Part shown: piece after piece, positions 9,820-27,746 of the stretch
Layout of the letters: the number at the start of each line of letters is the position of its first letter
Position numbering within the stretch: position 1 is the stretch's first letter
Source: Propionivibrio limicola
Lineage (GTDB): Bacteria > Pseudomonadota > Gammaproteobacteria > Burkholderiales > Rhodocyclaceae
Assembly (NCBI RefSeq): GCF_009469695.1
Contig: NZ_SSSR01000009.1
Coordinates: 1 to 64,000, forward strand
Reading direction: 5' to 3'
Length of the DNA stretch: 64,000 nt
The notes under the pieces: generated by a model
The model's database searches: none
Told to the model about the DNA's origin: nothing
The model's input: only the letters and a program-made list of their open reading frames with translations
Program-made: the position numbers and the translations under genes

Positions 9820-9925
9820 TGAGTACGATGTTTTTGTGCTGGGACGGGAGTTTATCCCGAAAACATTGTTTTGATCTTCCGGCGCGCTATTTGTTGTGAA
9901 GCATCGGCGTTGCAGGGCGCTGGGT

Positions 9926-11779
9926 TCATTGGGAGGCGCCGGGCGGGAGTGCCGCGAAGGTGTACAGTTCGATGGGGGCGCCCGCATTGTCTGGCGCGAA
10001 GGCGCCGATGCGGCAAAGGGGAATGCTGTGCGCGTGCCGGGCGACGTCGCCGCTGATGAGTTGGCGGGCGGGTTGCTGGCGCGTTTGCCGCTCGATGCGG
10101 AAGGCGATGTTGGCGACTTCGCCGAGGATGGTGTAGCGCTGTCGGGCGTGGCCGAAGTTGCCGGCAAGCAACGGGCCGGCATGGAGGCCGATGCCCATGA
10201 GAAGTTCCGGCTGATCGGGGGGGCGTGTGGCATTGATGCGCGTCAGTCCGTCCCGAATGGCAAGGGTGGCTTCGAGGGCGTGGCGCGCTTGCTCAGCCGG
10301 TGTGCCGTCGCGCCAGTAAACCATGAGGCCATCTCCGGCGATGTTGTCGATGATGCCCTGGCGTTCGGTGACTTCCTGAGCGACGAGGTCGACGGCCTGG
10401 TTGCTCCAGTGGGCGTGTTGCGCGGCGCTCATTTGCCGGGAGGCTTGCGTGGAGCCGATGATGTCGGCGTAGAGGACGGTGGTCCAGCGCGTTTCTTCGG
10501 CAATCTGGCCGCCGTGCCGCTGTAAATGGGCGACGAGCGGGGCGGGCAGGTAATGGCCGATCCGGGCGAGAATCCAGCGCCGTTCATTGATGAAGGCGGC
10601 GAGGATCAGGGCGGGGGAAAAAAGGAGTGGGTAGGCGAGCGGCGTGGCGAGCGGTAGATGAATGGCATGCTGTCGGTAGAGCCACAGATTGCCGCCTGTC
10701 GCCAGCAGGGCGAGCGCCAGGCCGGTGGCGGCAAGGCGGACGGGGGTTTGCTTGCACGCGAAAAGAACGAGTGTTTGCAGTAGCAAAAGTATGGCAAGGA
10801 TCGTGTTTTGTCCGGCGACCGGTGTGGGCGATTTGCCGCTCAGCCAAGCGCTGAGCAGACGGGCGTGTGTTTCGACGCCGGGCAGATTGGGGCTGACCGG
10901 GGTGTTGACGCGGTCACCGAGCGCGGGGGCCGTGGCACCAATCAGGAGGATGTGGTTGTGCAGGGTTTCCGGGGCGATGCTGCCGTTCCAGAGGGCGGCG
11001 GCCGACAGGTAGCGATGCGGTGAGGTGCCGCGCCAAGGGATGATGGCGGTCTGGTCGTCGTTCAGTGGCAGGGCGAGTTCGGGGGCGTTTGCGGGGGTGA
11101 GGCGCCAAGGCGGTTGTCCGAAATTTCCCGGTTCAAGCGTCCACTGTTGGGTGCCGGTAAGGTTGGCGAACAGGCTGACGGAGAGGGCGGTGCTGCATCC
11201 CTTTTCGGTGCAGGCGGCGGGCCAGAGTCGACGCATTTTGCCGTCACTGTCGAAAAGGGCGTTGATGTGACCGGCCTGGGCATTTGTCAGTGGCCGGCTG
11301 TTGGCGAGGATGCCCTGAAAATGGGGGAGGTGAGTGCTGGGCGGAATGGCGTTGTAGCGTGGGGCGCCCCGTTCGACAGGGTCGTGAGTGAAGAGTTGGC
11401 CGGTGACGATAGGCCGGTTGGCGAGGGCACGGTTAAGGGCGGCGTCTTCATTGGCCGGTGCGCCGGGGGGGAAGATCATGTCGAGTCCGACGGCGGCTGG
11501 CGCGTAACGCTCGAAAAGGAGGTCGATGAGCTGGGCCATCCGGCTGCGCGGCCAAGGCCACGGGCCGAGCAGGTCGATGGCTTCGTCGTCGATGGCGATG
11601 ATGGTGATCGGGGTCGCGTCGTCTGCGCGGCCGATGTTGCGAATGCGCCAGTCCGACAGGGTTTGCTCTAGCTGCTTGGCAAACGGCGTAATCCCTAGCA
11701 GGGCTGCTATCAGGCAGGCCAGTATGAGTGCAAATGGCCGATTGGCGCGCCTCCGGTCAACGCTCGCTAGCGATGCCAA
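9926..11779 (-). CDS. CHASE2-domain adenylate/guanylate cyclase, 617 aa
   Basis: After one N-terminal membrane helix (LILACLIAALLGITPFAK) comes a large periplasmic CHASE2 sensor (about 40-320, with ITIIAIDDEAIDLLGPWPW), then three closely spaced membrane helices (about 325-410) and a class III cyclase domain (about 430-590). Both metal-binding Asp residues are present (VLYADIIGST and NIAGDGLMVYW), as is the RYTILGEVANIAFRIE region. It should make cAMP or cGMP in response to an extracytoplasmic signal. The start overlaps the end of the FecR-domain gene by 13 bases, so the two are coupled. Confidence 0.88.
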   Translation of the reverse strand: MASLASVDRRRANRPFALILACLIAALLGITPFAKQLEQTLSDWRIRNIGRADDATPITIIAIDDEAIDLLGPWPWPRSRMAQLIDLLFERYAPAAVGLDMIFPPGAPANEDAALNRALANRPIVTGQLFTHDPVERGAPRYNAIPPSTHLPHFQGILANSRPLTNAQAGHINALFDSDGKMRRLWPAACTEKGCSTALSVSLFANLTGTQQWTLEPGNFGQPPWRLTPANAPELALPLNDDQTAIIPWRGTSPHRYLSAAALWNGSIAPETLHNHILLIGATAPALGDRVNTPVSPNLPGVETHARLLSAWLSGKSPTPVAGQNTILAILLLLQTLVLFACKQTPVRLAATGLALALLATGGNLWLYRQHAIHLPLATPLAYPLLFSPALILAAFINERRWILARIGHYLPAPLVAHLQRHGGQIAEETRWTTVLYADIIGSTQASRQMSAAQHAHWSNQAVDLVAQEVTERQGIIDNIAGDGLMVYWRDGTPAEQARHALEATLAIRDGLTRINATRPPDQPELLMGIGLHAGPLLAGNFGHARQRYTILGEVANIAFRIERQTRQQPARQLISGDVARHAHSIPLCRIGAFAPDNAGAPIELYTFAALPPGASQ

Positions 11780-13047
11780 ACCATGGTCCCGGTCAGCGCG
11801 CGTCCATCGTCCAGACTTCGCGTGAAGACGCTGCCTACGGTGTTGAGGTTGGCATGGACTACGCCGGTGAAGGTGCTGTTGGAGCGCGTGGCATCGGACA
11901 GCAAGTAGCCCGATGTGTTGACAGTACCTGCCGCGTTGATGGCATGCGTATTCAGTCCTTCGGTTACGCTGGCATTCGCGGAAAAGGCTCTGGCCGCTGT
12001 GTCGATGGTTAGCGTGCCACTGCCCAGTGTGGCTGCGGAGTAGACGCCGCCAGAGAGAACGTAGGCATCGCCTCCGGTCAGGTTGAATTGGGCTTTCCAG
12101 TTGTCCGGCAGGCGTGATGGCATTTCGGTGACGCCAAGTCCGAACAGGTTGGAAACGACGCGGATCTTTTTCTGTGCAGCCAGCAGTTCGCTTGCCGTGC
12201 TTCCCGAGACGCCCGCCAGGTCGGCTTTCCAGCGGCCCCAGTAGACGTCGTTGAGTCCGGTGTCAGTTGGTGTCGTGGGCGCTACGGTTGGTGTAGTCGG
12301 CGCGGTAATGGCCGCAATTTGCTTCGTTTTTTCGCTGACGGCTTCCGTGCGACTGTTTTCCTGGAGGACGGCTACGGGTTCGCTGGCCAGCGGCGGTGAT
12401 ACGCGATCCGGAATCTGATAGTGCTTGTCCTGCAGCAGCCGGGGTGTTTTGTCGTTGTGGTTGATCTCGACGTGGCCGGTGTTGTCGCCGGCGCGCAGGG
12501 TGATCGATCGGTCGAGGCAGGCGCCGAAACCTTCGGCGGCACAGCCGTCGCCAAGTGCGGCGACGACGATGGCCCCGCTCTTGATGCTGACGCGCGTGGC
12601 GGTGGCATCGGCAAAGGCGACGAAATCGGTGCCGCGCACGCCGATGGCGGCCACCGGGGTGTTGAAGCGGAAGGCTTCCTTGTTGGCTTCGCCGATTGCC
12701 CCGGTCACCGAACGGGCAACGCCGTGGCGGAGTGTATAGCGGACTTTGCCTCCCGTCGGATTGGCGGGGTCGTATTCGAAGACTTGCACTTCCAGTTCGG
12801 AGTTGGGGCGGATGGCGACGAGCCCGCCATCCTTCATGCGGACGTGAAGGTGGCCGCCATTGCCGGTCAGGAGTTTCTGCCCGGCTTCGATCTCCTGGCC
12901 TCGGGTGGCCGGGATGCGCTTCCCGTCGGCTTCGAGCCAGGCGGGACCCGCTGAAAGAAGGATGTTGCCGGCCGCCGGGCCGGCTAGTGCTGTGGTGCCG
13001 GACAGGAGCAGGGATGCGAGTGCGATGGCCAGGTGCCAGGTCTTCAT
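11767..13047 (-). CDS. FecR-domain exported protein, 426 aa
   Basis: A Sec signal peptide (LAIALASLLLSGTTALAGPA) precedes a FecR domain (about 55-165; VRYTLRHGVARSVTG and FNTPVAAIGVRGTDF are its hallmark strands). A Thr/Pro linker (ITAPTTPTVAPTTPTDTG, about 245-262) leads to a C-terminal beta-rich domain of some 160 residues that I do not recognise. Such FecR proteins are periplasmic and often neighbour CHASE2 proteins rather than the sigma-factor regulators they are named after. The overlap with the CHASE2-cyclase gene suggests that it binds or presents a ligand to that sensor. Confidence 0.82.
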   Translation of the reverse strand: MKTWHLAIALASLLLSGTTALAGPAAGNILLSAGPAWLEADGKRIPATRGQEIEAGQKLLTGNGGHLHVRMKDGGLVAIRPNSELEVQVFEYDPANPTGGKVRYTLRHGVARSVTGAIGEANKEAFRFNTPVAAIGVRGTDFVAFADATATRVSIKSGAIVVAALGDGCAAEGFGACLDRSITLRAGDNTGHVEINHNDKTPRLLQDKHYQIPDRVSPPLASEPVAVLQENSRTEAVSEKTKQIAAITAPTTPTVAPTTPTDTGLNDVYWGRWKADLAGVSGSTASELLAAQKKIRVVSNLFGLGVTEMPSRLPDNWKAQFNLTGGDAYVLSGGVYSAATLGSGTLTIDTAARAFSANASVTEGLNTHAINAAGTVNTSGYLLSDATRSNSTFTGVVHANLNTVGSVFTRSLDDGRALTGTMVWHR

Positions 13048-13159: not shown

Positions 13160-16100
13160 TCAATAGAGGTCGGGTTGATCGAGGTGCACCGGCATCAGGC
13201 AGTTCTGAAGTTGTTGCGCGGCTTGCTGCCAGCTATGCCATTGGAGTCCTTCCGGCGAGGGGTGTTGCCCGTGCCGTTGAAGTTCTTGCCAGAATTTTAC
13301 GGATTCGGCCAGATGACGGGCGGTGTGTCCGGTGAAGTAGAAGGCGTGAGGACCGGCGACTTCCCGGAAAACGGGGATGTTGCGCGCGATGATCGGCAGG
13401 TGATGGCGGGCGGCTTCGATCAGGGGGAGTCCGTAGCCTTCGTCTTCGGAGGCGGCGATCAGGGCGCTTGCCCGGCTGTAGATCAGTTCGAGTTCGCTGT
13501 CGCTGATGCCCTGGAGCCAAAAGAGGTGGTGTCCGTTTTCCGGGTGTTTTTCCAGCCGCTCGATGAATTCATCCATCATCCAGCCGGCCTTGCCGACCAG
13601 GATGAGGGTGGCGTCATGGCCTTCGGCCCAGAGGGTTTCGAAGGCGGCAAGAATTTGCATTTGCCCTTTGCGTGGTTCGATGGTGCTGACGCTGAGGAAG
13701 ATCGGCGTGCCGGGGGCTTTCGACCATGCGGGAAGTGCGGTTGGGGCGGCTGGTTTTGCTGCGGCGCCGACAGTTGTCTCGGCCAGAATGTCGGCCCCGA
13801 GCGGGAAGTGGGTGATGTCGGGGATGACTTCTTCTGAGGCGTGGCTGAGCAGCCAGTCCCGCACGTCGTTGGCCACGGTGTTGGAGATGCAGAGCAGGCG
13901 AGTCGATTGGCGTGCAATGGCGCGCAGCCAGCGGTCAAAGGCTTCCGGCATGCCTGGAATGGTCCATTCGGGATGCCGTAACGGGATGATGTCGTAGATG
14001 ACGTAGTAAACCCGGACGCCGTGACGCCGGTAGCTGTTCAGCCATTCTTCGGCTTCGGGGAACAGGTGGGCGCTCAGGTCGAGACCGAGGAAGATGTCGC
14101 CGGCCTCGGGCTCGACGACGGCGTTTTCTGCCGGGAGCGCTTCGGGGAATGACGCGGGAAGCGGCGCGGCCGGATCGAAGCGTCGGGTATGGCAGAAACC
14201 TTGGCCGGGGACGCCGTAGACGGGCAGGATCTGGTAGCCGGCAAGGTGCGGCAGCCGGTGTTGCTGCAATTGCTGCAGGATGTTGCGAACGACGCGCTGG
14301 ATGCCGGTACGGGCATCGCGTGCGTACAGTTCGGAAATGTCGACGAGCAGGCGATGGCGCGGCGGCGTTGGCGCAACGCGTGGGGCGTCGTGCTGGTGCA
14401 GCGCTTTGTCACGGCTGCAGCCGATCAGGGTGCGTGCCAGCCGTGCGGAGGTGCGCGGCCAGCTGCGTTCATCGAGCCATTGGTTTTGCGCTGTCTGGAG
14501 TTGTTCGATGAGGGCCGGTGTGCGGTGCAGGGTGGCGACGGCATCGGCGATGGCGGCGGCGCTGTTGCGCGCGGTTTGCCACGTGATGGCGGCGAGGTCG
14601 GCAAAGATGGGCTGGTCGCTGACGATGACGGGTTTGCCCGTGGTCAGACCAATGGTGACGGCGCCGCTGGCGCTTTCCTGCGTTTGGCCATACGGGAACA
14701 GGATGTAGTCGGCACAGGCAAGCTGGGCGATGCTTTGTCCGATTTCCTGGTAGTCGGTGTGCCAGTGCAGGCGATCGGCCAGGCCGAGTTCGCTGGCTTG
14801 TGTCTGGTACTGGCGCAGGAGTTCGGTGCGTTCCGGATCGGGGAGTGCGGTGATCGCCAGCAGGTGGGTTTCCTGTCCGGTCTGCGCGCTGATGAGGGGC
14901 AGGCTGGCAATCAGCCTGTCGATTCCTTTGTGCGGGTGCAGGAAGCCGAACGTGGCGACAACCAGCGCGTTTTCGGGGAGGCCGAGCGCGCTCCGGCTGA
15001 CGGTCCGGGACGGTGCGTGCGGCGCGACACCGTGCGGTAACAGCAGGAGATTGTTGTCAAGACCGAGTGCGAGCAGGTGGTTCAGGTCTTCGATGCTGTG
15101 CACGATGATGCGGTCGATGCGGCGCAGCGCGTCAATGGCCGGCTGCGGTGGACGTTGGTGATCGAGCAGCGGGCGGGTGGCGTGTATTTCCAGAATGACG
15201 GCCATGCCTCTCTGCGCGAGGGTTTGCATCTGCTCGCACACCGCTGTCTCGAGCCGGAAAAGGCTGGGCTGGTGCTGGATCAGGACGATGTCGCCGGGAT
15301 TGCTGTGTTGTCCGATGTTTTCCAGTGTCTGGCGGACGCTGTCGGTATCGCCGAGTGTCCAGGTGGGCGCGTAGTGGCGGTTGCCGTCGGCTCCACTTTC
15401 GGTTGTCCGGCGGTCGCAGGCGATGCGGAGGGTGAATGTGGCGTCGTCGCATGCGCTGACGAGGTCGCGCGCGTACTCGGCGATGCCGCAGGCCGTATTC
15501 CAGGGGCTGACCAGGTGGAGTGCGATCGGGGTCGGCGCGGACGGCTCGTTGAGGAGGGCAAGGGTGCGGGCAATTCCTTCCGCACTGCGCTGCCAGGTGT
15601 AGTTGGCCCAGAGATGGGCGTGTGCGGCCTGGCGACGACGTTCGAGGGCGGGGGCGTTGGTGAGGATTTCCTGATGGAGTTCCTTGAGTTGTCGGCCCAG
15701 ACTCTCGGCGTCGGGTTCGATCCAGCAGGATTCGTGCGTTCTGAGGTGGCTGGCCGAAGGCGCAAAGCGGAACGGAATCAGGGTGGCCGTTTGCTGGTTG
15801 CAGTAGTCGGTATGGGCACCGTGGCCGGTGACGAGTACCGGGAGTCCGAGCGCGAGGGCTTCGGCGGCCGGCAGGTTGAAGCCTTCGCCGCGCGTCGGGA
15901 GGACGAGGGCGTGTGCGCTTTGGTAGAGGGCGCGCATCTGGTCGGCGTCGAGCGGTGTTTCGTCGATGGTGATGTGCGGCGGGTTCGGATGCCCGGCGCT
16001 GAGTTCGTCCCATTGACGCCGAATGTCGTTGTGGGGGTTGGGAAATGTCTTGATGTAAAGCTCGACCGCGTCGTCGGCGGTGAATTGGCGGAGCCAGGCG

Positions 16101-17932
16101 TTGAGCAGGACGTCCGGGCCTTTGCGGGGGAATACGGAGGAGACGTGCAGGAAGCGGCAGCGGTCGGCGCGGGGGAGCGGGGCCAGCGGTGCGCCAGGGT
16201 TGCTTGCCAGATGGTCGACGCCCATGGGGATGACGACGATGGGTTTGCTGAAGCCGGAATTTCTCAAGGCGCGTTTGACGAACTGGCTGGCGGTCAGCAC
16301 GGCGTCAAAGTGTGTTTCAAAGTGTTCGACGATGTGGGCCGGAACGTGGGTTTCTTCCCAGAAGAACAGGGCGAGCCGCCATTTGGCCGGCTGCGGGTCG
16401 CTGATCGGTGGGTAGTGATGCACGATCGAGCAGGTGTGGACTAGGGCTTCTGCGTCGGCCGGGATGGCTTGTCCGGCAAGCCTGGCGAGCCAGGCGGGGG
16501 CGTTGGCCGAGAGCGTGGTGCAGTCGCCGTCGCGCGGTTGCAGGCTGACGTGGTCCGGATGTGCGTGCGCAAGGGCGCCGAGGATGCCGCGATTGACGAC
16601 AGCCAGGCTGTAATGCCCTTCGGCGTGTCCGGTCAGGCGATACCACATGGGGAGCATTGAAGGTGGTGCGCCGTGCGTGGCGAGCCGGTTCGTTTCAGGG
16701 GGCTCCAGCGCACTGAGGATGGAAGTCCCCGGAATCTTCAGGTCTGACGGTTGAGGTGCTGGGCGTTGTGGCATGGGTTCCTGCGTGAGAGCAGGTGTTG
16801 CGACTTCGGCCGTCTGGTTTGTTGCTGCAGGAAGAGGTGTGGCTTGTTGCGCTTCGGTATCCGCCGCCTGCTCCGCCGATGGGCGGCATTCTGGAGGGGT
16901 GGGCGTACTCGGTGATTGCAGGCAAGCTTTGATGCGCCGGGCGTATCGAAGTGCGTAGCGCAATGGGCGAGTAAGTTTCCAGGAACGGCTACCGATAATG
17001 GTGTTGAGTTCGGACTGTTTTTTTCCGAGTTCAGACCGCGTTCTTTCGAGTTCGGCCTGCGTTCTTTCGAGTTCAGACCGCGTTCCGTCGAGTTCGGACT
17101 GTGTTCTTCCGAGTTCGGACTGCGTTGCGTCGAGGCGCGCCTGCATCGAGGCGGCTTCTGCGTGCATGGCCCGCAGCGCTGCGTCGTTCTGCGCCTGAAT
17201 TTCAGAGAGCCGGCGCTCGGTTGCGGCCAGCGCCTGTTGGGCGTGCACGGTTTCGAGTCTGACAAAATCGTCGAACACGTTAGGCGGGAGTTGGAAGGCT
17301 TGCGCCAGGGCGCTGTGTTCTTCGGCGAGATAGAACCGGTTCAGGCCATCGAAATAGACGGGTCGGTAACGGTTATCCAGCAGCGGGGCATCCCAGGCTG
17401 TGCTGTTCTGGTTGTTCTGTTGTGGGTTGATGGCTTCGACGACGACAATCCACGGACGGAAGCGGGAAAAGTCCATGCCGGCGAGGACTTGCGCTTCGTA
17501 ACCTTCTACGTCGATTTTGAGAAAGTGGATGTCGGGTGGGGCGTATTGTTCGCAGATCCGGTCAAGGCGTTGCACCGGCACCGTGGTCGTGCGCATGGGC
17601 ACGCCTTGCTGGTCGTGCCGTTGGGCGACCTCGGTGGAGACGGTGGCCCAGCCGCGGATGTCGGGGGCGTAAAGCGTTGCCTGGCCTTCGCTGTCACCTA
17701 TGGCAACTTGCAGGTTGAGGTCGCGCGGGCGTGCCGCTTCGAGTTCGGCATGGTGTTCGGCTAGCGGCTCGATGTTGATGCCGTGCCAGCCTCGGTCGTA
17801 GAAGGCTTTGGTCACCGAATCGCCTTCGGGGGTATTGGCCCCGACGTCGATATAGAAGCCTGCGCCGACGTAGCCGAGCGCTCTCCAAAGCATTACGTCT
17901 TCATAGTTTTGTGCGTACGAGATGAATCTCAT
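13160..17932 (-). CDS. FkbM methyltransferase - coiled coil - triple GT4 fusion, 1590 aa
   Basis: Residues 1-205 are an FkbM-type SAM methyltransferase (YIDVGAN and HFLKIDVEGYE motifs). Residues about 230-312 form a coiled coil built of tandem heptads, followed by a SRSWKLTRPLRYA segment and a Pro/Thr/Gln-rich linker to about 425. Three GT4 glycosyltransferase domains follow: GT-1 (about 430-780) with an intact E-x7-E (EGFNLPAAE), GT-2 (about 790-1180) whose motif has lost its second Glu (ESASGAVTI), and GT-3 (about 1190-1590) with EGYGLPLIE and the TGIQRVVRNIL opening. Placement after wzt suggests a polymerase of the ABC-exported chain, with the methyltransferase perhaps capping it. Confidence 0.85.
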   Translation of the reverse strand: MRFISYAQNYEDVMLWRALGYVGAGFYIDVGANTPEGDSVTKAFYDRGWHGINIEPLAEHHAELEAARPRDLNLQVAIGDSEGQATLYAPDIRGWATVSTEVAQRHDQQGVPMRTTTVPVQRLDRICEQYAPPDIHFLKIDVEGYEAQVLAGMDFSRFRPWIVVVEAINPQQNNQNSTAWDAPLLDNRYRPVYFDGLNRFYLAEEHSALAQAFQLPPNVFDDFVRLETVHAQQALAATERRLSEIQAQNDAALRAMHAEAASMQARLDATQSELGRTQSELDGTRSELERTQAELERTRSELGKKQSELNTIIGSRSWKLTRPLRYALRYARRIKACLQSPSTPTPPECRPSAEQAADTEAQQATPLPAATNQTAEVATPALTQEPMPQRPAPQPSDLKIPGTSILSALEPPETNRLATHGAPPSMLPMWYRLTGHAEGHYSLAVVNRGILGALAHAHPDHVSLQPRDGDCTTLSANAPAWLARLAGQAIPADAEALVHTCSIVHHYPPISDPQPAKWRLALFFWEETHVPAHIVEHFETHFDAVLTASQFVKRALRNSGFSKPIVVIPMGVDHLASNPGAPLAPLPRADRCRFLHVSSVFPRKGPDVLLNAWLRQFTADDAVELYIKTFPNPHNDIRRQWDELSAGHPNPPHITIDETPLDADQMRALYQSAHALVLPTRGEGFNLPAAEALALGLPVLVTGHGAHTDYCNQQTATLIPFRFAPSASHLRTHESCWIEPDAESLGRQLKELHQEILTNAPALERRRQAAHAHLWANYTWQRSAEGIARTLALLNEPSAPTPIALHLVSPWNTACGIAEYARDLVSACDDATFTLRIACDRRTTESGADGNRHYAPTWTLGDTDSVRQTLENIGQHSNPGDIVLIQHQPSLFRLETAVCEQMQTLAQRGMAVILEIHATRPLLDHQRPPQPAIDALRRIDRIIVHSIEDLNHLLALGLDNNLLLLPHGVAPHAPSRTVSRSALGLPENALVVATFGFLHPHKGIDRLIASLPLISAQTGQETHLLAITALPDPERTELLRQYQTQASELGLADRLHWHTDYQEIGQSIAQLACADYILFPYGQTQESASGAVTIGLTTGKPVIVSDQPIFADLAAITWQTARNSAAAIADAVATLHRTPALIEQLQTAQNQWLDERSWPRTSARLARTLIGCSRDKALHQHDAPRVAPTPPRHRLLVDISELYARDARTGIQRVVRNILQQLQQHRLPHLAGYQILPVYGVPGQGFCHTRRFDPAAPLPASFPEALPAENAVVEPEAGDIFLGLDLSAHLFPEAEEWLNSYRRHGVRVYYVIYDIIPLRHPEWTIPGMPEAFDRWLRAIARQSTRLLCISNTVANDVRDWLLSHASEEVIPDITHFPLGADILAETTVGAAAKPAAPTALPAWSKAPGTPIFLSVSTIEPRKGQMQILAAFETLWAEGHDATLILVGKAGWMMDEFIERLEKHPENGHHLFWLQGISDSELELIYSRASALIAASEDEGYGLPLIEAARHHLPIIARNIPVFREVAGPHAFYFTGHTARHLAESVKFWQELQRHGQHPSPEGLQWHSWQQAAQQLQNCLMPVHLDQPDLY
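17006..17131 (-). repeat. Six-copy 21-bp tandem repeat encoding heptads
   Basis: GAGTTC recurs at 17006, 17027, 17048, 17069, 17090 and 17111, an exact 21-bp period, with the rest of each unit also strongly conserved. On the minus strand the units encode the heptads SELGRTQ, SELDGTR, SELERTQ, AELERTR, SELGKKQ and SELNTII (about residues 268-310 of the giant protein). This is an in-frame minisatellite that lengthens a coiled coil one heptad at a time. Confidence 0.92.
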
Positions 17933-18064: not shown

Positions 18065-19348
18065 TCACTGCGACAGCGGATCTGCATCGACGGAACGACG
18101 ATCAGGGGCCTTGTTGGTACTCGCCGGATTTTCAATGATTTCGAATTTTACCGGTATCCAGCTGGTGCCGACAAAGCGTGGTTTGCTGATGTTGGTGACG
18201 TTAAAAACGAGGGCAAGGTCTCGCCATTCGTAGTTGTTTTGCAGGTGATTTTCGGTGCTGACCAAGGCGGTGGAGACGGAATAGCTGCCTTCGCCAAAGT
18301 TGGCCTCGAAGCTTATGGCGTAGCAGATATCCTGTCCTGCCCGAACATCGTGGAGTGGCTGTTCGACGTAGTGGGTGTTGGTGCCAAACACCGGCTGTCC
18401 AAGGCGGTCCTTGATCATGAAGCCAAGCACCAGCCTGGGGAGGTCGGTATTGGCATGTACGCGGATTTCGAGCGTTACGGGCTGCGCAACGTCAATCAGT
18501 TCGACGACGTGTCCTTTGTCGTTCTTGAGTACGATGTCGGTAACCGTGGCCTCGCCAGTGCCCGAAATGGTCTGAATTTTTCCATCGGTGCCTTCGTCTT
18601 GCTGGACGTTGTAGTTTTCCCGTTCGGCAATCAGCGCGTTGTAGTAGTCGGCGACCGCTTCGGGGGAGCCCTGCATGGCGAGTCTTCCTGCGTTGAGCAG
18701 GATGGCGCGGTCGCAAATGGATTGTATGGCGGCCTTGTCGTGCGACACGATCAGCAAGGTGGTGCCTGCTTGCCGATATTCGCGAATCCGGTTGAAACTC
18801 TTGTGCTGGAAGTAGGCGTCTCCGACGGAGAGGGCTTCGTCGATGATGAGAATGTCCGGACGGATGGCGGTTGCAATACTGAAGGCCAAGCGAACCTGCA
18901 TGCCACTGGAGTAAACGCGGACGGATTGGTCGATATACGTGCCAATTTCGGCAAATCCTTCTATTTCCGGCATGAGCCGGGTGATTTCCGCTTCCTGCAT
19001 GCCAAGCAGTTGCCCTGCCATATAGACGTTTTGGCGGCCGGTGAAGTCCGGATGGAAGCCCATGCCGAGTTCGAGCATGGCGGCCACGCGGCCCTGCAAC
19101 TGGACGCTTCCTGTCGTGGGCTGGGTGGTCCCGCAGATCATCTTGAGCAGGGTGCTTTTGCCGGCTCCGTTGATTCCGAGGATGCCAACCGCTTCACCTG
19201 CGGCGATTTCAAAGTTGATGTCTTGCAGTATCCAGGTAGTGCTATGCCTTGGCTTGCTACCCGGTACCAGCCATTCGAGAAGTCTGGACTTTGGGGTGGG
19301 GTAGTTTTTGTAAGCCTTGCCAAGATTGTTTACGCGAATGGTGCCCAT
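18065..19348 (-). CDS. wzt: Wzt-type ABC exporter ATPase with glycan-binding C-terminus, 427 aa
   Basis: The N-terminal nucleotide-binding domain (1-245) has Walker A GINGAGKST, the signature YSSGMQVRLAF and Walker B ILIIDEALSVGD. A C-terminal extension of about 170 residues forms a beta-sandwich region ending near FVGTSWIPVKFEII, like the carbohydrate-recognition domain of Wzt proteins that selects finished, often end-modified O-polysaccharide. It would work with the permease encoded at 24498-25283. It lies between two glycosyltransferase genes and the giant fusion in one direction of transcription. Confidence 0.88.
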   Translation of the reverse strand: MGTIRVNNLGKAYKNYPTPKSRLLEWLVPGSKPRHSTTWILQDINFEIAAGEAVGILGINGAGKSTLLKMICGTTQPTTGSVQLQGRVAAMLELGMGFHPDFTGRQNVYMAGQLLGMQEAEITRLMPEIEGFAEIGTYIDQSVRVYSSGMQVRLAFSIATAIRPDILIIDEALSVGDAYFQHKSFNRIREYRQAGTTLLIVSHDKAAIQSICDRAILLNAGRLAMQGSPEAVADYYNALIAERENYNVQQDEGTDGKIQTISGTGEATVTDIVLKNDKGHVVELIDVAQPVTLEIRVHANTDLPRLVLGFMIKDRLGQPVFGTNTHYVEQPLHDVRAGQDICYAISFEANFGEGSYSVSTALVSTENHLQNNYEWRDLALVFNVTNISKPRFVGTSWIPVKFEIIENPASTNKAPDRRSVDADPLSQ

Positions 19349-19428: not shown

Positions 19429-20607
19429 TCAGTGTTGATATCCCGTTGGCCAGTCGATGTTGTTCAGCAGCTGGCGGGTGCTTTCTTCCCAGCTTATGGT
19501 GATCATTTTTTCCGAGCGGGGGTGTTTGCCCCGGGCGTGGACTTGTAACCATCGGGAAACGGCTCGCTCGATATCTTCAGGTTCTTTTCCTTGGAAAAAC
19601 CAGGCGTGATCGCCGGTGACTTCGCGGAAAACAGGAATGTCCCTGGCTATGATGGGGAGGTTGTGACGGGCCGCCTCGATGAGCGGCAAACCAAAGCCTT
19701 CATGCTCTGAAGCAGCGATAAGGCAGGTTGTTCCCGCATAGATTTTCTGAAGAAATTGGTCGCTGATTCCATCGAGCCAGAATAGGCGATGTCCCCGTTG
19801 GGGGTGGGTGCGCAGTGTTTGAAGAAGGTCGTCAACTTTCCACCCGGCCTTGCCAACGATTGCCAGGTTGCATTCGATATTTTTTGCCCACATGCGTTCA
19901 AATGCCGAAAGTACCTGTCTGTATCCCTTGCGAGGTTCAATGGTTCCGACCATCAGGAAACTTGGTTTCTCTGCCAGAGAGTTGAGCAAATTTCCGGCGT
20001 CCGTTGGCATTCCGTGTGAGGGAATTGAGTTTTCAATGTCGGCACCCAAGTGGAACCAGCCAACTCTGAAGCCTTGCTCGTGCGTTGGAAAATTTTCGCG
20101 TAGCCAGTTTTTCATTTCGTCCGCGACAGATTTCGATATGCAGAGGGCGCCGTCAAAATTGACCAAGGCTTCCAGCCAGCGCTGGTGCATTCCTGCCGTT
20201 CCATCAACGAATCCCCATGGGATTTGTATCGGGAGCAGGTCGTATATGACAAAATAAATTTTTACTCCGGTCTTCCTTAAATGCTGAAGGAAGTTTTTTT
20301 GTGCGATGACTACTTGGCGTTGCAGGTCGAGTCCAATAAAAATATCACCTGAATTGACCTCGATGGCTTTGTTGGTCTCTTCGGCATGGCGGGGGGAAAG
20401 GTGCGGAAGGCCGATGTCCGCGTAACGATAGCCGCATTCTTCCTCCATGGCATATACAGGTCGTGTTGTATAACCGGGAAGAAGATTTTTCGACAAATGG
20501 AGGAGGATGCTACGGGTGACGCGTTGTATCCCCGTTTTGGCATCGTTCCGTACGATCTGCGATATGTCGACCAATATCTGCCGAGCGCCTGAAAATTCGT
20601 CGGTCAA
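19429..20607 (-). CDS. GT4 glycosyltransferase, 392 aa
   Basis: This is a GT-B fold enzyme with the GT4 nucleotide-sugar motif EGFGLPLIE near residue 310 and the SFLMVGTIEPRKGYRQVLSAF strand-helix. The opening (ILVDISQIVRNDAKTGIQRV) is shared with the next gene upstream and with the third glycosyltransferase domain of the giant fusion, so these are paralogues. It probably transfers a GDP-linked sugar (mannose or rhamnose) to the growing chain in the cytoplasm. No membrane segment is seen. A strong hairpin sits between it and the preceding gene. Confidence 0.82.
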   Translation of the reverse strand: MTDEFSGARQILVDISQIVRNDAKTGIQRVTRSILLHLSKNLLPGYTTRPVYAMEEECGYRYADIGLPHLSPRHAEETNKAIEVNSGDIFIGLDLQRQVVIAQKNFLQHLRKTGVKIYFVIYDLLPIQIPWGFVDGTAGMHQRWLEALVNFDGALCISKSVADEMKNWLRENFPTHEQGFRVGWFHLGADIENSIPSHGMPTDAGNLLNSLAEKPSFLMVGTIEPRKGYRQVLSAFERMWAKNIECNLAIVGKAGWKVDDLLQTLRTHPQRGHRLFWLDGISDQFLQKIYAGTTCLIAASEHEGFGLPLIEAARHNLPIIARDIPVFREVTGDHAWFFQGKEPEDIERAVSRWLQVHARGKHPRSEKMITISWEESTRQLLNNIDWPTGYQH

Positions 20608-20816: not shown

Positions 20817-22187
20817 TTAGTTTGCCGCGTCCTGTAGTGTCTTCTCGAGAAGCTGTTCGGTGCTTTCGTGCCAGTTGAGCCATTTGTAGTCGGCTGGTAC
20901 GAGTAACTCCTCGGGTATTCCTTCCTTTTCGATTTTTGTGATCTTGTTATACAGGTCGTCCGGTGATTCAAGATCAAAATAGCCGACGCGATTACCTCCG
21001 ACTTCCCGGTGGATTGGTGTGTCGCTGACCATGACTGGCAGGCGATTGCTCAGTCCTTCGACAATCGGGAGTCCGAAACCTTCGACAATCGATGGGAAAA
21101 GCAGCATTTTGGCATGTTGGTAGCAATAGAATAATTCGTCATCGTTCAGATCATGCCAGTAATGCAAGTGCTTCCCGTTCTCCGGGTGCTGGTTGATGCG
21201 CTCCATGAGGGGCTCAACTTTCCATCCGGTCCTGCCAACAATAACCAGACTGACGTTGCTTCCTTGCTCCCACAGTCTGTCGAAGGCATCCAGCAAATAA
21301 GCATGGTTTTTACGTGGCTCGACAGTGGATACGATTAAATAGGCGGGCCGCTGTGCCATGACTTCGACGACGTCTTGTCGGACGTGAGAGGTGTCGGCGA
21401 TCCGGTATTTGAAATCGGCGCCCAGATGAAAGAAATCGAATGCTTTTCCGTTGATCTGCTCGCCAAATTCCTTGAGCATGTAGGCGTGCAAGTCCTTCTG
21501 AACTGTTTGCGAGATTCCAATGTACTTGTCGACGTGTTCAAGCGAATCATGGAACCAGTTTTTGAATACGGTTGCCAGGAAGTTGTCGCAAAACTGCGGG
21601 TGCGTAATGGGAATGAGGTCGTAGATGACGGCTACGACCTTGACTCCTTTTTGCCTGGCTTTGGCAACGCTCGGCCAGATTTCTGAATACCACGTAGAGT
21701 CGAGTAACAATAAAATATCGTTGGTCTTGATAAGGCTGAAATTATCAGTTGTTCCGGAATTGTCCCGGCGTTTCAATAAATAGCGCATCGGACGCAGGGT
21801 CAGGTTGTCAACGATATAACCCAGGCCCATTTCATTGCGTGGTTTGAACAGAAAACGCCGAACTGCCGGGTGGTGCCCGCATATTGCCGCTACTAACTCA
21901 CGAGATGCTATATAAACTGATCGAAGGTAGTTGGCTGCCTTGTAAATAAATGGCGTTGTTTCCTCGGCAGGAGAAGGGGGTTGAGGTGGCGGTGTTTGCG
22001 GATAAAGCTCTTCGATGGAGAGTGGCTGAAACTGTCCGCTTCCGATTTTGACGGGTTGAATCCGTAAATTCACACCGGGCGCAAGTTCCTCAAGATTCTC
22101 AATGACGCGGCGTACAACGCGTTGAATGCCTGTATTAAGGCCTACGTGCTCTGCAAGGTAAGAGCAATCAATATAAAGTGTTCTCAT
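20817..22187 (-). CDS. GT4 glycosyltransferase, 456 aa
   Basis: This GT-B enzyme has the motif EGFGLPIVE near residue 370 and the typical AYLIVSTVEPRKNHAYLLDAF segment. The N-terminus (LNTGIQRVVRRVIENL) links it to the TGIQRV group in this locus. An insertion of about 100 residues after residue 60, with a Pro-rich stretch (YPQTPPPQPPSPAEETTP), makes it longer than its neighbour. It begins eight bases after the stop of the FG-GAP gene, indicating one transcript. Donor and linkage cannot be predicted. Confidence 0.82.
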   Translation of the reverse strand: MRTLYIDCSYLAEHVGLNTGIQRVVRRVIENLEELAPGVNLRIQPVKIGSGQFQPLSIEELYPQTPPPQPPSPAEETTPFIYKAANYLRSVYIASRELVAAICGHHPAVRRFLFKPRNEMGLGYIVDNLTLRPMRYLLKRRDNSGTTDNFSLIKTNDILLLLDSTWYSEIWPSVAKARQKGVKVVAVIYDLIPITHPQFCDNFLATVFKNWFHDSLEHVDKYIGISQTVQKDLHAYMLKEFGEQINGKAFDFFHLGADFKYRIADTSHVRQDVVEVMAQRPAYLIVSTVEPRKNHAYLLDAFDRLWEQGSNVSLVIVGRTGWKVEPLMERINQHPENGKHLHYWHDLNDDELFYCYQHAKMLLFPSIVEGFGLPIVEGLSNRLPVMVSDTPIHREVGGNRVGYFDLESPDDLYNKITKIEKEGIPEELLVPADYKWLNWHESTEQLLEKTLQDAAN

Positions 22188-22195
22188 GCGAGCTT

Positions 22196-24349
22196 TTATT
22201 TCGTTGGAAGGATTGAGTACGCCGATGCGAGGTTACGGAATTCCTGTGAATAAATGAATCCGTCCAGAACTTCTCCGCGATTGGCGCCGCTGGCTATTTT
22301 GTCCAGCCAGTATTGCTTTCCTGTGTTGTCTGCCTGGCGATTGAAAAATGCACGATAAAGAATATCGACATATTCGTCGTTGTTTACTGCCTGATTCGTG
22401 AATTCCTGGCTGAAAATGAATCCTTGTGCGACTTCCGATCCAGAAGATATGCCTGTATTGAGTCGGTCAGTCCAGTCGTTAAGTCCGTGCGGGTCGGGTG
22501 TTCTGCCGAGAATGGTTTCGTAGAATCGGGTTACGAAGTCGGAGATATTGCTTGTTGACTGATTGAACTGGTAGCGGCCGACAGTAAAGTCGTTCACGAC
22601 AGCTTCGCTCGGGGATGCCCAGCAGTATACGACGGACTGGTCTTTGGATGATGTTGTTCCCCCGCTGATAATGTCGATATGACCATCGTTGTCTACGTCT
22701 TTCGCAGCGGGGGAGCCTTTGAAAAATTGAAAGATGTATTCCATTTCGGTGGAACTGGATATTTGTGTCCCCGCATGATCAAGGATAACCATTTGAGCCC
22801 CTTGCGAATACAGAATTTCAAGCTTCGCGTCACCGTCGAGGTCGACGGCGATGGGGGCGCTGAAAATGGGGTTGTGGGCTGTGTTGTAGAAGGTTCGCGA
22901 AGGAGTGTTGAAGATCTCTTGTCCATAGCGATCCCATGCGTGGATATAACCATCGAGTGTCGCCGCGATGATTTCCAGACTACCATCATTATCAAGATCG
23001 GCAACGAGTGGTGTCGCAAACGTCTGTCCGTGTGTGCGAAGGGTGTATTTCAAACTGCCATCGTCTTCCCATACCTTGATATAAGACCCTCGTCCGTCAT
23101 GGAAGAAGTTTCCTGTTCCGTAGATTATTTCCAGTTTTCCATCACCATCGATATCGGCAGTAACGGGGCTGCTCCATAATGCCTGCTCTTCATATTTTCC
23201 CCTGAGTTCAGTGTAGGAGGGGTTGCCTACAGGCTGATTGAAGCCCGGGAAATTCTGGGAGCCATCGGCTGAAATCACGTGAAAAATTCCGCCAGTGCTC
23301 GTTCGTGCGTCGGCGTTTGCCGTGATGTCCGCAGACACCAGGATCTCGAAAATGTTGTCGCCATTCAGATCAGCAATGCGTGGGGTGGACCATACCGTGT
23401 CGGCGAGATGAATTCTCTGTTCTTCTGCACCGGTTCTGCCGTCAAGTATCCAGGTGTTCTGATCCCAGCTGTTATAAATGACCTCCTTGACGCCATCTCT
23501 GTCGATGTCAAATACAACAGGCGATCCATAGACGCCGTCGGGTCTTCCATCGCCGGTGTTGGTACTACCGCCAATCACATCAAGGCTTTGGTGAAACCAT
23601 TTGATATTGCCGTTGGCGTCAAGAGCGTAAATGCCGCCTTTGTCTCCAGGTTGTCCAACGACGGAGGCACCTGCTTCCCCTGTAGTGTCGGCACCAACCC
23701 CAATCACGATATCCGTGCTTCCATCACCGTCCAGATCAGAGAAAGACGGGGCTGTGCTCACTGATGTGGTTGTATAGGTTTTCCCGGTCTGGGAGTCCGG
23801 GCCGCTGATTGCCGGAAAACTGACCGACCACTTTATGGTCCCGTCATCCTCAAGACAGATCAGTCCGGCTGGGCGTGTTTCATTGAGTTGGGAATCAAGT
23901 GCTTTGCTTGTGCCGACAAAAATTTCCTCCTTCCCATCTTTGTCTATATCGTAAAGCGCTACGGAGACATCCCGAATCGGGCCAAAATCGAGTTGCGTTG
24001 ACCAAGTGTTCTCCGGCAGGGTTACGGAGAGGTTGTAGTTTGACGTGGATGCTGCTGTCGGGAAGATTTTCAGGTAAAGAGTCTCGCTTTGCGAGGTTAT
24101 GTAGCTAATGGTTTCGGTTCCTGCACTATAGTTTGCCGCTACTATTTGCATCTGCGAGTTGTACAGAACCATGTTGACGTCCGTGCCGGTGGCAGGCGTC
24201 ATCACGAACTCCAGTGAGCCCGGGGTCGCCTCTATCGAGTACCAGTCATCCCCTTGCCCATTGATGGAGTAACTCCCGGTTGTGATTTCCTGTGCCAGTT
24301 CAACCGTGCTGTTTGGCTCGAAGCTTGCTGCAGTCTCATAGAGATACAC
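22196..24349 (-). CDS. FG-GAP/integrin-like repeat protein with C-terminal DUF4214, 717 aa
   Basis: Residues 1-110 resemble a pre-peptidase C-terminal (PPC)-like beta-sandwich (DDWYSIEATPGSLEFVMTPA). Residues about 120-590 form a beta-propeller with eight calcium-loop motifs of the FG-GAP type, for example DIDKDGKEEI, DLDGDGSTDI, DIDRDGVKEV, DIDGDGKLEI, DLDNDGSLEI and DVDNDGHIDI. Residues about 610-710 are DUF4214 (two FYETILGRTPD/LYRAFFNRQAD-like units), common in proteins leaving by type I secretion. There is no Sec leader. It is embedded between wzm and a glycosyltransferase gene, so it may be a surface protein tied to this glycan. Confidence 0.82.
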   Translation of the reverse strand: MYLYETAASFEPNSTVELAQEITTGSYSINGQGDDWYSIEATPGSLEFVMTPATGTDVNMVLYNSQMQIVAANYSAGTETISYITSQSETLYLKIFPTAASTSNYNLSVTLPENTWSTQLDFGPIRDVSVALYDIDKDGKEEIFVGTSKALDSQLNETRPAGLICLEDDGTIKWSVSFPAISGPDSQTGKTYTTTSVSTAPSFSDLDGDGSTDIVIGVGADTTGEAGASVVGQPGDKGGIYALDANGNIKWFHQSLDVIGGSTNTGDGRPDGVYGSPVVFDIDRDGVKEVIYNSWDQNTWILDGRTGAEEQRIHLADTVWSTPRIADLNGDNIFEILVSADITANADARTSTGGIFHVISADGSQNFPGFNQPVGNPSYTELRGKYEEQALWSSPVTADIDGDGKLEIIYGTGNFFHDGRGSYIKVWEDDGSLKYTLRTHGQTFATPLVADLDNDGSLEIIAATLDGYIHAWDRYGQEIFNTPSRTFYNTAHNPIFSAPIAVDLDGDAKLEILYSQGAQMVILDHAGTQISSSTEMEYIFQFFKGSPAAKDVDNDGHIDIISGGTTSSKDQSVVYCWASPSEAVVNDFTVGRYQFNQSTSNISDFVTRFYETILGRTPDPHGLNDWTDRLNTGISSGSEVAQGFIFSQEFTNQAVNNDEYVDILYRAFFNRQADNTGKQYWLDKIASGANRGEVLDGFIYSQEFRNLASAYSILPTK

Positions 24350-24497: not shown

Positions 24498-25283
24498 CTA
24501 GAGTTCATCAACCATTTCGCCTGCGCATCGTTTGTATAAATAAACCCCGGAGTAACAAAGCAGTAGTCCAATGGCTGCTGTCGGTATTAGTGAGGATGCG
24601 TCCGGGTGTTCGTTGTAAATGAAAATCAGATGGTATGCCTTTACCAGCGGTGTTAATGGATTGAGTTCAACTATTTTTAAAATTTGTTCGGGGAGGATTG
24701 AGTCAAGGTAGACTATTGGCGTGAGCCAAAACCAGAACTGCAACGAAACGCCCAGTAGTTGGCCAATGTCCCTGAAAAAAACATTTAACAATCCAAGTGT
24801 CACCCCTAGCCCTATAGAGAATATGAGTTGAACAAAAAGCGTCGGGAAGAAAGAAAGAAAGCTCCAGCCCGGAAAGTTGTTCGTAACTATTAAAAACAGG
24901 ATGAATAGCACAAATACAATGGAGAAGTTGACGAGCGAACTTAGTGCGGCAGTAATCGGCAGACAGATTCTCGGGAAATTTATCTTTTTTATGAGGTTGG
25001 CGTTTTCTATAAATATGTTGCAAGTGCGGGATAGTGTTTCCGAGAAAAATCCCCAAGTCAGTATGCCGGAGCAAAGGTAGATGCTATAAGAAAATTCATT
25101 TTCCGTTCCGGGGAGTCTGGCCTTCATCAGGTTCGTGAAAATTAATGTATATACAAGAATCATTGCGAGGGGGTTGATGATCGCCCAGGCCGATCCAAGC
25201 ATGGAGTTCATGTATTTTGCTTGAAAGTCCCTCTTTATGCTTTCGTATATAAAACCGCGGTACGCAATTATTCTTTTAATCAT
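24498..25283 (-). CDS. wzm: Wzm-type ABC exporter permease, 261 aa
   Basis: This is an ABC-2 type polysaccharide export permease: about six membrane helices, an N-terminal amphipathic segment (DFQAKYMNSMLGSAWAIINP) that is highly typical of Wzm/TagG/KpsM proteins, and a size of about 260 residues. It forms the channel for the finished glycan together with Wzt. The ATG at 25283 yields the standard MIKRIIAYRGF opening; the frame continues to a TTG at 25322. The Shine-Dalgarno sequence is weak (AAAGA). It is the first exporter gene after gmd on this strand. Confidence 0.87.
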   Translation of the reverse strand: MIKRIIAYRGFIYESIKRDFQAKYMNSMLGSAWAIINPLAMILVYTLIFTNLMKARLPGTENEFSYSIYLCSGILTWGFFSETLSRTCNIFIENANLIKKINFPRICLPITAALSSLVNFSIVFVLFILFLIVTNNFPGWSFLSFFPTLFVQLIFSIGLGVTLGLLNVFFRDIGQLLGVSLQFWFWLTPIVYLDSILPEQILKIVELNPLTPLVKAYHLIFIYNEHPDASSLIPTAAIGLLLCYSGVYLYKRCAGEMVDEL

Positions 25284-25620
25284 TTGTCGATCTTTTTTAT
25301 GGGGAGCATCCAGCTGAATCAATAGATCGTGAATCTATCGAAGACAGGTGTCATGAAAATAAACGAGCGTACTTCTGATCTCCTTGCCGGCGATTTATCC
25401 GTTGTTTCTAGTTGGGGCAATCTGTGGTTTTTCGCGCAACCTTGTCTATTGCTTCTGCTCTATGGGGTTGGAGGGGGTGGGCTCTGCTGCCCAGCCTTCC
25501 TTCGCTCAAGGAGATTCGAGGCCTTGTCAGGCTTGAGAGCTTAATTGCGGCGAAACTCTCGCTCGTCGGGAGCGAGCGAGAGTTCTTTCAAGTAACGCTA
25601 TCTCCTGTAGCTATGCGGCA
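25284..25620. other. Intergenic region between gmd and wzm
   Basis: I see no credible gene in these 337 bases. They hold the hairpin at 25554-25584 and a likely promoter zone for wzm, for which I could not find a convincing -35/-10 pair. Confidence 0.5.
25554..25584 (-). terminator. Hairpin after gmd, possible terminator
   Basis: AACTCTCGCTCG pairs perfectly with CGAGCGAGAGTT over a seven-base loop. On the minus strand it lies about 37 bases after the gmd stop and is followed by only TTTC, so termination may be weak and could allow partial read-through into wzm. Confidence 0.5.
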
Positions 25621-26849
<1,229 letters not shown>

Positions 26850-27746
26850 GTGCGTGGAAAAAAGGTACTGATAACAGGGGGAACAGGGTTTACGGGACGG
26901 CACCTTGTCCGGAATCTGGAAAGCGCAGGCTGTTCTGTCTTTTGTCTGGGTGATCATCCTGCGGACGTCCCGAATTTTTTCTTGGCCAGCATTCTCGATC
27001 GTGAGGCGTTGTCCAAGGTGGTTCGTGAGGTTCAGCCTGATTTCGTCGTGCATCTTGCGGCAATTTCTTTTGTCGCCCACGAAAATGTGAACGATATTTA
27101 TGAAATAAATGTCATTGGCTCTCGAAATCTCCTGCATGTGTTGGCGGAGGAAGCGCCAAATGTGGAGTGCGTGTTGCTGGCAAGCAGTGCGAATGTTTAC
27201 GGCAATTCTTCTGTGGAGGCGGTTAATGAGGCCGTGCCGCTATTGCCGGTGAATGATTATGCCGTGAGCAAGCTTGCGATGGAGTATGTGGCCCGTCTTT
27301 GGATGGGCCGCTTGCCGATTGTGATCGCGCGGCCCTTCAACTACACGGGGGTGGGGCAGTCTGCGAATTTCCTGTTGCCCAAGATCGTGGATCATTTCCG
27401 TAGAGGCGCCAGAGAAATCGAGCTCGGCAATCTGGATGTGGCGCGGGATTTTTCCGATGTGCGGATGGTTACGGCGGCCTATTGCGATTTGTTGAAGGCC
27501 GCGCCTGCGGGAGAGGTGTTCAATGTCTGCTCCGGCGTGGCCTACAGTCTGCAGGATGTGCTGGATATGATGGCGGAAATTGCCGGCTATCGTATTCGCG
27601 TAACGGTGAATCCGGCATTCGTTCGGAGCAATGAGGTAAAAATGTTGCGGGGCGACAACGCGAAACTTGTGTCGGCCATTGGCGCCTTGAAGTCGCGCCC
27701 CCTGAAAGAAACGCTTGCCTGGATGTATAGCGGAGAAGAGATTTGA
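26850..27746 (+). CDS. rmd: GDP-4-keto-6-deoxy-D-mannose reductase, 298 aa
   Basis: The NAD(P)-binding opening KKVLITGGTGFTGRHLV starts directly after a GTG at 26850 that has an AGAGGAG site upstream. Family markers include HLAAISFVAH, the YAVSK catalytic motif (DYAVSKLAMEYV) and ARPFNYTGVGQS. RMD reduces the Gmd product to GDP-D-rhamnose, whereas a fucose synthase (GMER) would epimerise it; the absence of the longer GMER-type C-terminus favours RMD. The stop overlaps the TTG start of the next gene. Confidence 0.82.
   Translation: MRGKKVLITGGTGFTGRHLVRNLESAGCSVFCLGDHPADVPNFFLASILDREALSKVVREVQPDFVVHLAAISFVAHENVNDIYEINVIGSRNLLHVLAEEAPNVECVLLASSANVYGNSSVEAVNEAVPLLPVNDYAVSKLAMEYVARLWMGRLPIVIARPFNYTGVGQSANFLLPKIVDHFRRGAREIELGNLDVARDFSDVRMVTAAYCDLLKAAPAGEVFNVCSGVAYSLQDVLDMMAEIAGYRIRVTVNPAFVRSNEVKMLRGDNAKLVSAIGALKSRPLKETLAWMYSGEEI

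Follow-up and report, generated by a model that had tools for sequence, protein, structure and literature searches.

Can the length of a molecular ruler, one that decides where an O-polysaccharide chain ends, be written heptad by heptad in tandemly repeated DNA? The question is raised by a 1590-aa (amino acid) protein encoded on the minus strand at 13160..17932 of a 64,000-nucleotide stretch of Propionivibrio limicola DNA (contig NZ_SSSR01000009.1; the whole stretch is called the window here), in which an FkbM methyltransferase, a coiled coil, a basic helix, a linker and three GT4 glycosyltransferase domains follow one another in one chain. Six tandem 21-bp units in the same gene code for about half of the predicted rod-like helix. 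We regard it as probable, with moderate confidence, that this protein is a fused chain terminator and polymerase of an O-polysaccharide dependent on an ATP-binding cassette (ABC) transporter, probably a 6-deoxyhexose (D-rhamnose) polymer, with the coil as its capping ruler. More tentatively, a comparison of homologous sequences suggests that FkbM-type rulers, in Proteobacteria and at two measured loci beyond them, may have a largely digital spacer length, with whole heptads gained or lost, repeatedly through tandem copying of 21-, 42- or 63-bp units that arose on more than one occasion, and with the helix phase preserved at either end; the window protein would then represent a fused case in which a single array makes up about half of the ruler.

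At the DNA level, the array lies at 17000..17125 on the minus strand (aa 270-311), as delimited by Tandem Repeats Finder (TRF) together with unit and codon analysis. Its units stand in the frame of the 1590-aa open reading frame (ORF), with exact period and without indels, and write the heptads TQSELGR, TQSELDG, TRSELER, TQAELER, TRSELGK and KQSELNT in that order, which bears out both the six exact-period units and the in-register heptads of a preliminary description of this DNA, although the units have diverged. The TRF row itself reads 17006-17126, period 21, 5.8 copies, 79% matches, 0% indels and score 151, and a period-42 row (17006-17134, 85% matches, score 188) has the top score among the 29 rows of the window. 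Pairs of units have 12-19 of 21 bases in common (mean identity 76.5%), far from the near-identical units of a variable-number tandem repeat (VNTR) or contingency locus, and the longest exact match is 16 bp between adjacent units and 18 bp at a distance of 42 bp. At columns with the same residue, the same codon is used in 52 of 62 unit pairs, against 29.6 +/- 5.4 expected from random synonymous codons drawn by the gene's own usage (2000 simulations, none reaching 52). The units therefore descend from one another by DNA duplication, and the array is a product of such duplication, but a diverged one.

The array falls within a predicted helix at 16991..17257 (minus strand; aa 226-314), 89 residues long and about 13 nm if straight, that AlphaFold2 models as single and unbroken, in agreement with the continuous coil proposed earlier; block predicted local distance difference test (pLDDT) values are 85-95 over residues 231-300 and 74-79 over 301-320. 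The helix breaks at residue 315 and is followed by a second one at 316-338 (pLDDT 61-74). This second helix coincides with a coil-exit module, SRSWKLTRPLR..., a predicted membrane-proximal basic amphipathic helix (16919..16990, minus strand; aa 315-338) with a net charge of +8 over residues 316-338, whose hydrophobic moment stands out over 322-338, where 0.6% of shuffles reach it, but not clearly over 316-338 (6%). Ahead of the coil stands the FkbM methyltransferase domain, a predicted terminal cap enzyme (17288..17932, minus strand; aa 1-215), with PF05050 matching at aa 29-185 (E 7e-30), TIGR01444 above its cut-off, and many invariant columns in an alignment with 13 homologues. Foldseek gave a single match in the PDB at E <= 0.001, the methyltransferase 4rv9 (E 4e-4), with more S-adenosylmethionine methyltransferases among the weaker matches; no sequence relative of the domain was found in the PDB at E <= 0.01. 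Behind the module come a disordered linker rich in Pro, Ala and Thr (16658..16918, minus strand; aa 339-425; 21% Pro), with block pLDDT of 32-40 from residue 341 and modelled disorder running to residue 440, and three fused GT4 domains on the minus strand, delimited approximately by Pfam: domain a at 15563..16660 (about aa 425-790), domain b at 14408..15547 (about aa 796-1175, three PF00534 stretches) and domain c at 13193..14362 (about aa 1191-1580, best PF00534 stretch 1405-1553). Pfam thus confirms the domain order as first described: the chain opens with FkbM, and three GT4 stretches come after the coil. No kinase domain was matched in the protein at E <= 0.01.

The species is represented by one assembly. 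Nothing close to a second copy of the protein turned up among the matches listed from 148 relatives (only some candidates scored), among matches in 399 genomes of the order, 398 of the phylum, 395 of the family and 369 of the class, or among 16 plasmid records, where all identities were below 60%. A search of genome contigs gave 14 relatives, with best segments 32-55% identical. The FkbM part (aa 1-225) matched at E <= 1e-30 in 20 of the 399 order genomes, 8 of the 398 phylum genomes, 10 of the 395 family genomes and 5 of the 369 class genomes, each count including the own genome and the samples overlapping; at E <= 1e-40 it matched in 41 of 62 genomes of genus g115. We compared 61 loci: the window, the 14 contig-search relatives, 36 genome regions, 7 of the 16 plasmid records and, from the 80 viral loci kept from IMG/VR, three (L086-L088, none with a measurable spacer). 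The spacer was taken as the distance between a PPNxFD-like motif at the FkbM end and an SxSW[RK]xT-like motif after the coil; 34 of the 61 loci had both motifs and the 27 that were without one were left out. All 41 spacers of genus g115 were measurable; with four loci shared between the two sets, the total comes to 71 distinct homologues. Some FkbM-coil proteins (L039, L185) have FFR.SGRPKK..RRLLFH.SGKPR in place of SxSWRxT, and three proteins from the window's own family (L193, L194 and L195, in G882, G072 and G1125) join FkbM to GT4 without a coil, as natural zero-length cases.

Spacers ranged from 32 to 342 residues, and their lengths were far from evenly spread over the seven classes modulo 7: class 4 held 41 of the 71 (10 expected), class 1 held 11, class 5 seven, class 0 five and the rest seven. 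The excess was present in the diverse set (18 of 34, p 1.3e-7) as in genus g115 (23 of 41), and after clustering by FkbM identity at 70% (18 of 31, p 2e-8) and 60% (11 of 23, p 1e-4), although class 4 was picked after the data were seen, which counts against the result in that these p values need about 7-fold multiplication; among distinct lengths, class 4 made up 17 of 43. As a control, the tail from the second motif to the stop codon (n=69) gave a chi-squared (6 degrees of freedom) of 11.0, where the spacer gave 106.8, and tail lengths had no comparable pattern. Seen from the N-terminal anchor, hydrophobic peaks stand at 1 and 5 mod 7, and from the C-terminal anchor at -6 and -10; at class 4 the two sets coincide. 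The a/d phase that the ends predict comes out best of the seven possible ones in 35 of the 41 class-4 spacers (35 of 38 for the middle third), so that class 4 is an unbroken heptad register in most spacers. Four-residue insertions are among the known coiled-coil discontinuities (PMC5082667), and 18 of the 30 spacers outside class 4 fit one or two such stutters. The window spacer is one of these (99 residues, class 1, or class 4 plus a four-residue stutter); its best a/d phase shifts by 4 from the N- to the C-terminal part, and on both grounds a probable stutter, or hendecad step, can be placed by eye between two register halves at about aa 245-253 (17174..17200, minus strand), outside the array. 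A score model for stutters was set aside, being forced by the length class and adding little.

Arrays like that of the window recur in relatives. TRF arrays with a score of at least 40 occurred in 27 of the 71 spacers, and 17 of the 71 had a best period of 21 (ten), 42 (five) or 63 (two); random segments of the same loci carried such an array in 115 of 1420, with a best period of 21 in nine and of 42 or 63 in none. Unit types differ (e.g. SSQNQQL in L042, ATQAETR in L189 and the TQSELER type of the window), but the Ala-Glu-rich units of L034, L038, L173 and L184 resemble one another, and the pairs L240/L241 and L050/L220 each have a unit in common, so separate births number fewer than 17. The array of L173 (42-bp unit, 2.5 copies, 100% identity) is a recent duplication. 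Most spacers, including most of those of genus g115, are without a period-21 array, and L222 differs by one heptad from L215, L216, L218, L219 and L223, with FkbM domains 93-96% identical and no TRF array in the spacers; the steps in length are therefore as much a mark of selection on register as of slippage. On the comparison suggested in the preliminary description, spacer lengths do differ between relatives, with a strong excess of whole-heptad steps. L166, from another genus of the family and the best full-length relative found, with 60% identity in FkbM, has the same order of FkbM, coil and three glycosyltransferases around a spacer of 53 residues without a TRF array. Overall, evolution of the spacer is for the most part heptad-stepped, with tandem duplication as one route. 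In L034, which has the longest array among the homologues, AlphaFold2 predicts one helix at 228-339, with pLDDT below 60 from about residue 321. Some spacer arrays have periods of 33, 54 and 117 bp (L055, L176, L192, L244), i.e. 11, 18 and 39 residues, which fit heptad and hendecad arithmetic; other periods (15-19, 30 and 36 bp) do not.

The genes around the protein are those of an ABC-dependent pathway. They include a Wzt ATPase (18065..19348, minus strand; PF00005) with the C-terminal Wzt_C domain found with rulers of this class (PF14524, E 6e-37), and a Wzm ABC-2 permease (24498..25322, minus strand; PF01061, with the NCBIfam Wzm/RfbD model below cut-off). A GDP-mannose 4,6-dehydratase gene, gmd (25621..26592, minus strand), reaches 423 bits with TIGR01472 (cut-off 415) and also matches PF16363, and an NAD-dependent epimerase/reductase (26790..27746, plus strand; PF01370, PF16363), RMD-like by position and a putative GDP-6-deoxyhexose reductase, had no NCBIfam equivalog at or above cut-off. 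Wzm/Wzt together with these two enzymes thus make a GDP-6-deoxyhexose polymer exported by Wzm/Wzt likely, with D-rhamnose as its putative sugar. Two further GT4 glycosyltransferases are encoded on the minus strand, at 19429..20607 (44% identical to domain c) and at 20817..22187. Among the 34 measured diverse loci, the window included, examined over stretches of 3.4 to 64 kb, a Wzt-like ATPase was present in 29 (two weak), the Wzt C-terminal part in 23 and Wzm in 24, and at least 8 of the 34 proteins had glycosyltransferases on the same ORF.

A corresponding place is occupied in E. coli HS by a 708-aa methyltransferase-kinase between wzt and wbdA, taken as WbdD by place, length and domains. This protein carries SRSWRMT behind its coil, and its C-terminal stretch (LPPEVYEIYLKL) resembles, by eye, stand-alone FkbM-coil proteins; a profile of 45 exit modules searched against 254 ORFs matched it at E 9.9e-10, the next ORF following at 0.34. 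WbdD of E. coli O9a and K. pneumoniae O3 resembles the window protein in its N-terminal cap enzyme, coil and SxSWRxT exit motif, as well as in a membrane-associated amphipathic region and the gene order of transporter, terminator and polymerase (PMC3482155, PMC11231755), and its coil is described as keeping the cap about 20 nm from the polymerase, altered coil lengths changing chain length (PMC5082667). In contrast to the window protein, the WbdD methyltransferase has its Pfam matches in other families, with a kinase behind it, the polymerase WbdA is separate and there is no 21-bp array; the O8 WbdD is a methyltransferase only (PMC3482155). The union of cap, coil and polymerase in one chain had been thought unusual, a claim that we withdraw, as K. 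pneumoniae O7 ORF6 and O12 WbbB already join the three (PMC11231755). ORF6 has methyltransferase, coil and glycosyltransferase modules but differs in its kinase domain, carbohydrate-binding module and GT2 modules, and the available part of its description mentions no DNA repeat; WbbB, likewise terminator and polymerase in one chain, has a coil established as a ruler, whereas its cap enzyme is a Kdo transferase (PMC11231755). The E. coli O101/O162 methyltransferase, with one methyltransferase domain and a C-terminal coil, is required for O-methylation and has been proposed as a ruler, but is not described as fused in the available text (PMC13168486).

The best available reading, though unproven, is therefore a WbdD-like capping ruler. 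The three GT4 domains would sit at the membrane behind the basic amphipathic helix, and a continuous and presumably oligomeric coil, parallel and trimeric in WbdD, would keep FkbM at a distance of about 13 nm, where the enzyme would methylate the non-reducing end of the growing chain once this is long enough; Wzt_C would then recognise the cap. We infer the cap chemistry, the oligomerisation, the membrane binding, the ruler function and the sugar. The minisatellite would be the DNA record of the heptad duplications that built the membrane-proximal half of the rod. With the two ends each fixing the helix phase, the rod would change preferentially by whole heptads (21 bp) or by a four-residue stutter, so a 21-bp tandem duplication would be a ready way to change the ruler unbroken. 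The ruler of the preliminary description accordingly stands in part: the helix, the domain order, the cluster with Wzt_C, the synteny with WbdD and the common exit motif are consistent with it, and capping is putative, as is the link between coil length and glycan length.

It is also conceivable, if unlikely, that the coil is a mere oligomerisation and membrane-tether stalk common to many glycan enzymes, its length free within register and measuring nothing. Spacers of 88 to 242 residues within genus g115 would suit such a stalk, as would the coil-exit module, which was found in 20 of 99 genomes, own included, and is carried by proteins of GT2, GT4 and other methyltransferase kinds. Ten of the 20 exit-module proteins comprise seven that match glycosyltransferases (two of these single-domain GT2s), one methyltransferase plus GT4, one methyltransferase alone and one without a match, and the module is also present in GT2 and methyltransferase proteins that have, by eye, little or no coil; the motif was thus rejected as a mark of rulers and points to a coil or membrane module rather than to a ruler in itself. 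A stalk accounts less well for the position of FkbM-coil genes, which in most measured diverse loci are close to Wzt/Wzm, the place that wbdD has in E. coli, and the coil of WbdD is experimentally supported as a ruler (PMC5082667, PMC11231755). Several further results weigh against the capping ruler or its heptad steps. Any continuous coil whose ends are fixed should have a quantised length, which is in itself no proof of a ruler, and the enrichment of period 21 and the quantisation may both hold for coiled coils generally. By eye, the core of the array is weak (Leu with Thr/Lys); the join of FkbM and helix has a pLDDT of 53 at residues 221-230, which leaves a rigid link tentative, and AlphaFold2 was run as a monomer with 14 sequences. 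Three relatives fuse FkbM to a glycosyltransferase without a coil, and 27 of the 61 diverse homologues were unmeasurable with the standard motifs. With looser motifs, L047, L204 and L208 gave 141, 77 and 77 residues (classes 1, 0 and 0), and class 4 stands at 41 of 74 with these three added; its excess is weak with clustering at 55% (5 of 14, p 0.04). There were 668 pairs, not mutually independent, whose FkbM identity was at least 70% and whose spacers were unequal; the difference was a whole number of heptads in 233 of them and 3 or 4 modulo 7 in 267, and the close pair L240/L241 differs by 10, against a strict heptad rule.

Short-term tuning is a different matter. That a slippage-prone minisatellite varies between strains and adjusts O-chain length, much as repeats tune the activity of NeuO, is improbable, even with 21-bp units that stand in frame, the exact 42-bp duplication of L173 and related species that differ by 7 or 14 residues. 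NeuO of E. coli K1 is a known glycan-modifying enzyme with VNTR-encoded heptads, its poly-psi domain arising from slippage-prone repeats; its units, however, are 7 bp with frameshift switching, and the domain is a crystal-disordered N-terminal extension and not an inter-domain rod (PMC3046976). In the window, the 76.5% identity of the units and exact matches of at most 16-18 bp at distances of 21-42 bp argue against slippage; the 7-residue difference of L222 from its relatives is in spacers without a TRF array. Among 5426 E. coli genomes, 263 matched wbdD, 210 of them over at least 80%, and the gene is 2127 nt in all 48 full-length places (H17-H64) among the 60 of 263 matches listed, a constancy that is a weak test of slippage, since wbdD has no 21-bp array. 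Any change from strain to strain is thus more likely slow than phase-variable, because the units have diverged. Low-complexity heptads are common in coiled coils. That the array is functionless low-complexity coding sequence or an artefact of a draft assembly of 56 contigs is nevertheless very improbable, given the open frame, the intact domains, a register that agrees with both ends and arrays at the same place in relatives.

Rulers of O-chain length are known so far from a few enteric serotypes. If the capping ruler is correct, spacers of 32-342 residues would form a natural series in which to ask whether ruler length sets O-chain length, and genus g115, with its strong excess of heptad steps, would be such a series within one genus; the tandem arrays suggest how rulers could change length without losing register. 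The heptad-stepped length of the FkbM capping family is the part worth following. No report that joins FkbM, a coil and O-antigen, and no earlier report of such length steps, was found in the open-licence PubMed Central literature; a heptad-stepped ruler may be published elsewhere.

Some minor observations concern the same genes and their surroundings. The SxSWRxTxPLR module recurs in GT2, GT4 and methyltransferase proteins of L251-L270, and among ten exit-module proteins scanned no Pfam match (E <= 1e-5) had its best stretch over the module. Two E. coli loci (L249, 6000-6266; L250, 6000-6182) have an IS1-type element adjoining a wbdD remnant, with wbdA annotated as intact. Sphingobium plasmids had equal gene length in two of three examined and are uninformative on copy number. 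In the window, an FG-GAP/DUF4214 protein is encoded at 22196-24349, between glycosyltransferase and transporter genes, and a DUF4214 protein likewise follows FkbM and glycosyltransferase genes on a Rhodovastum plasmid. Beside the cluster, at 8554-13047, a FecR protein, a CHASE2-cyclase and a TPR protein are encoded in a row.

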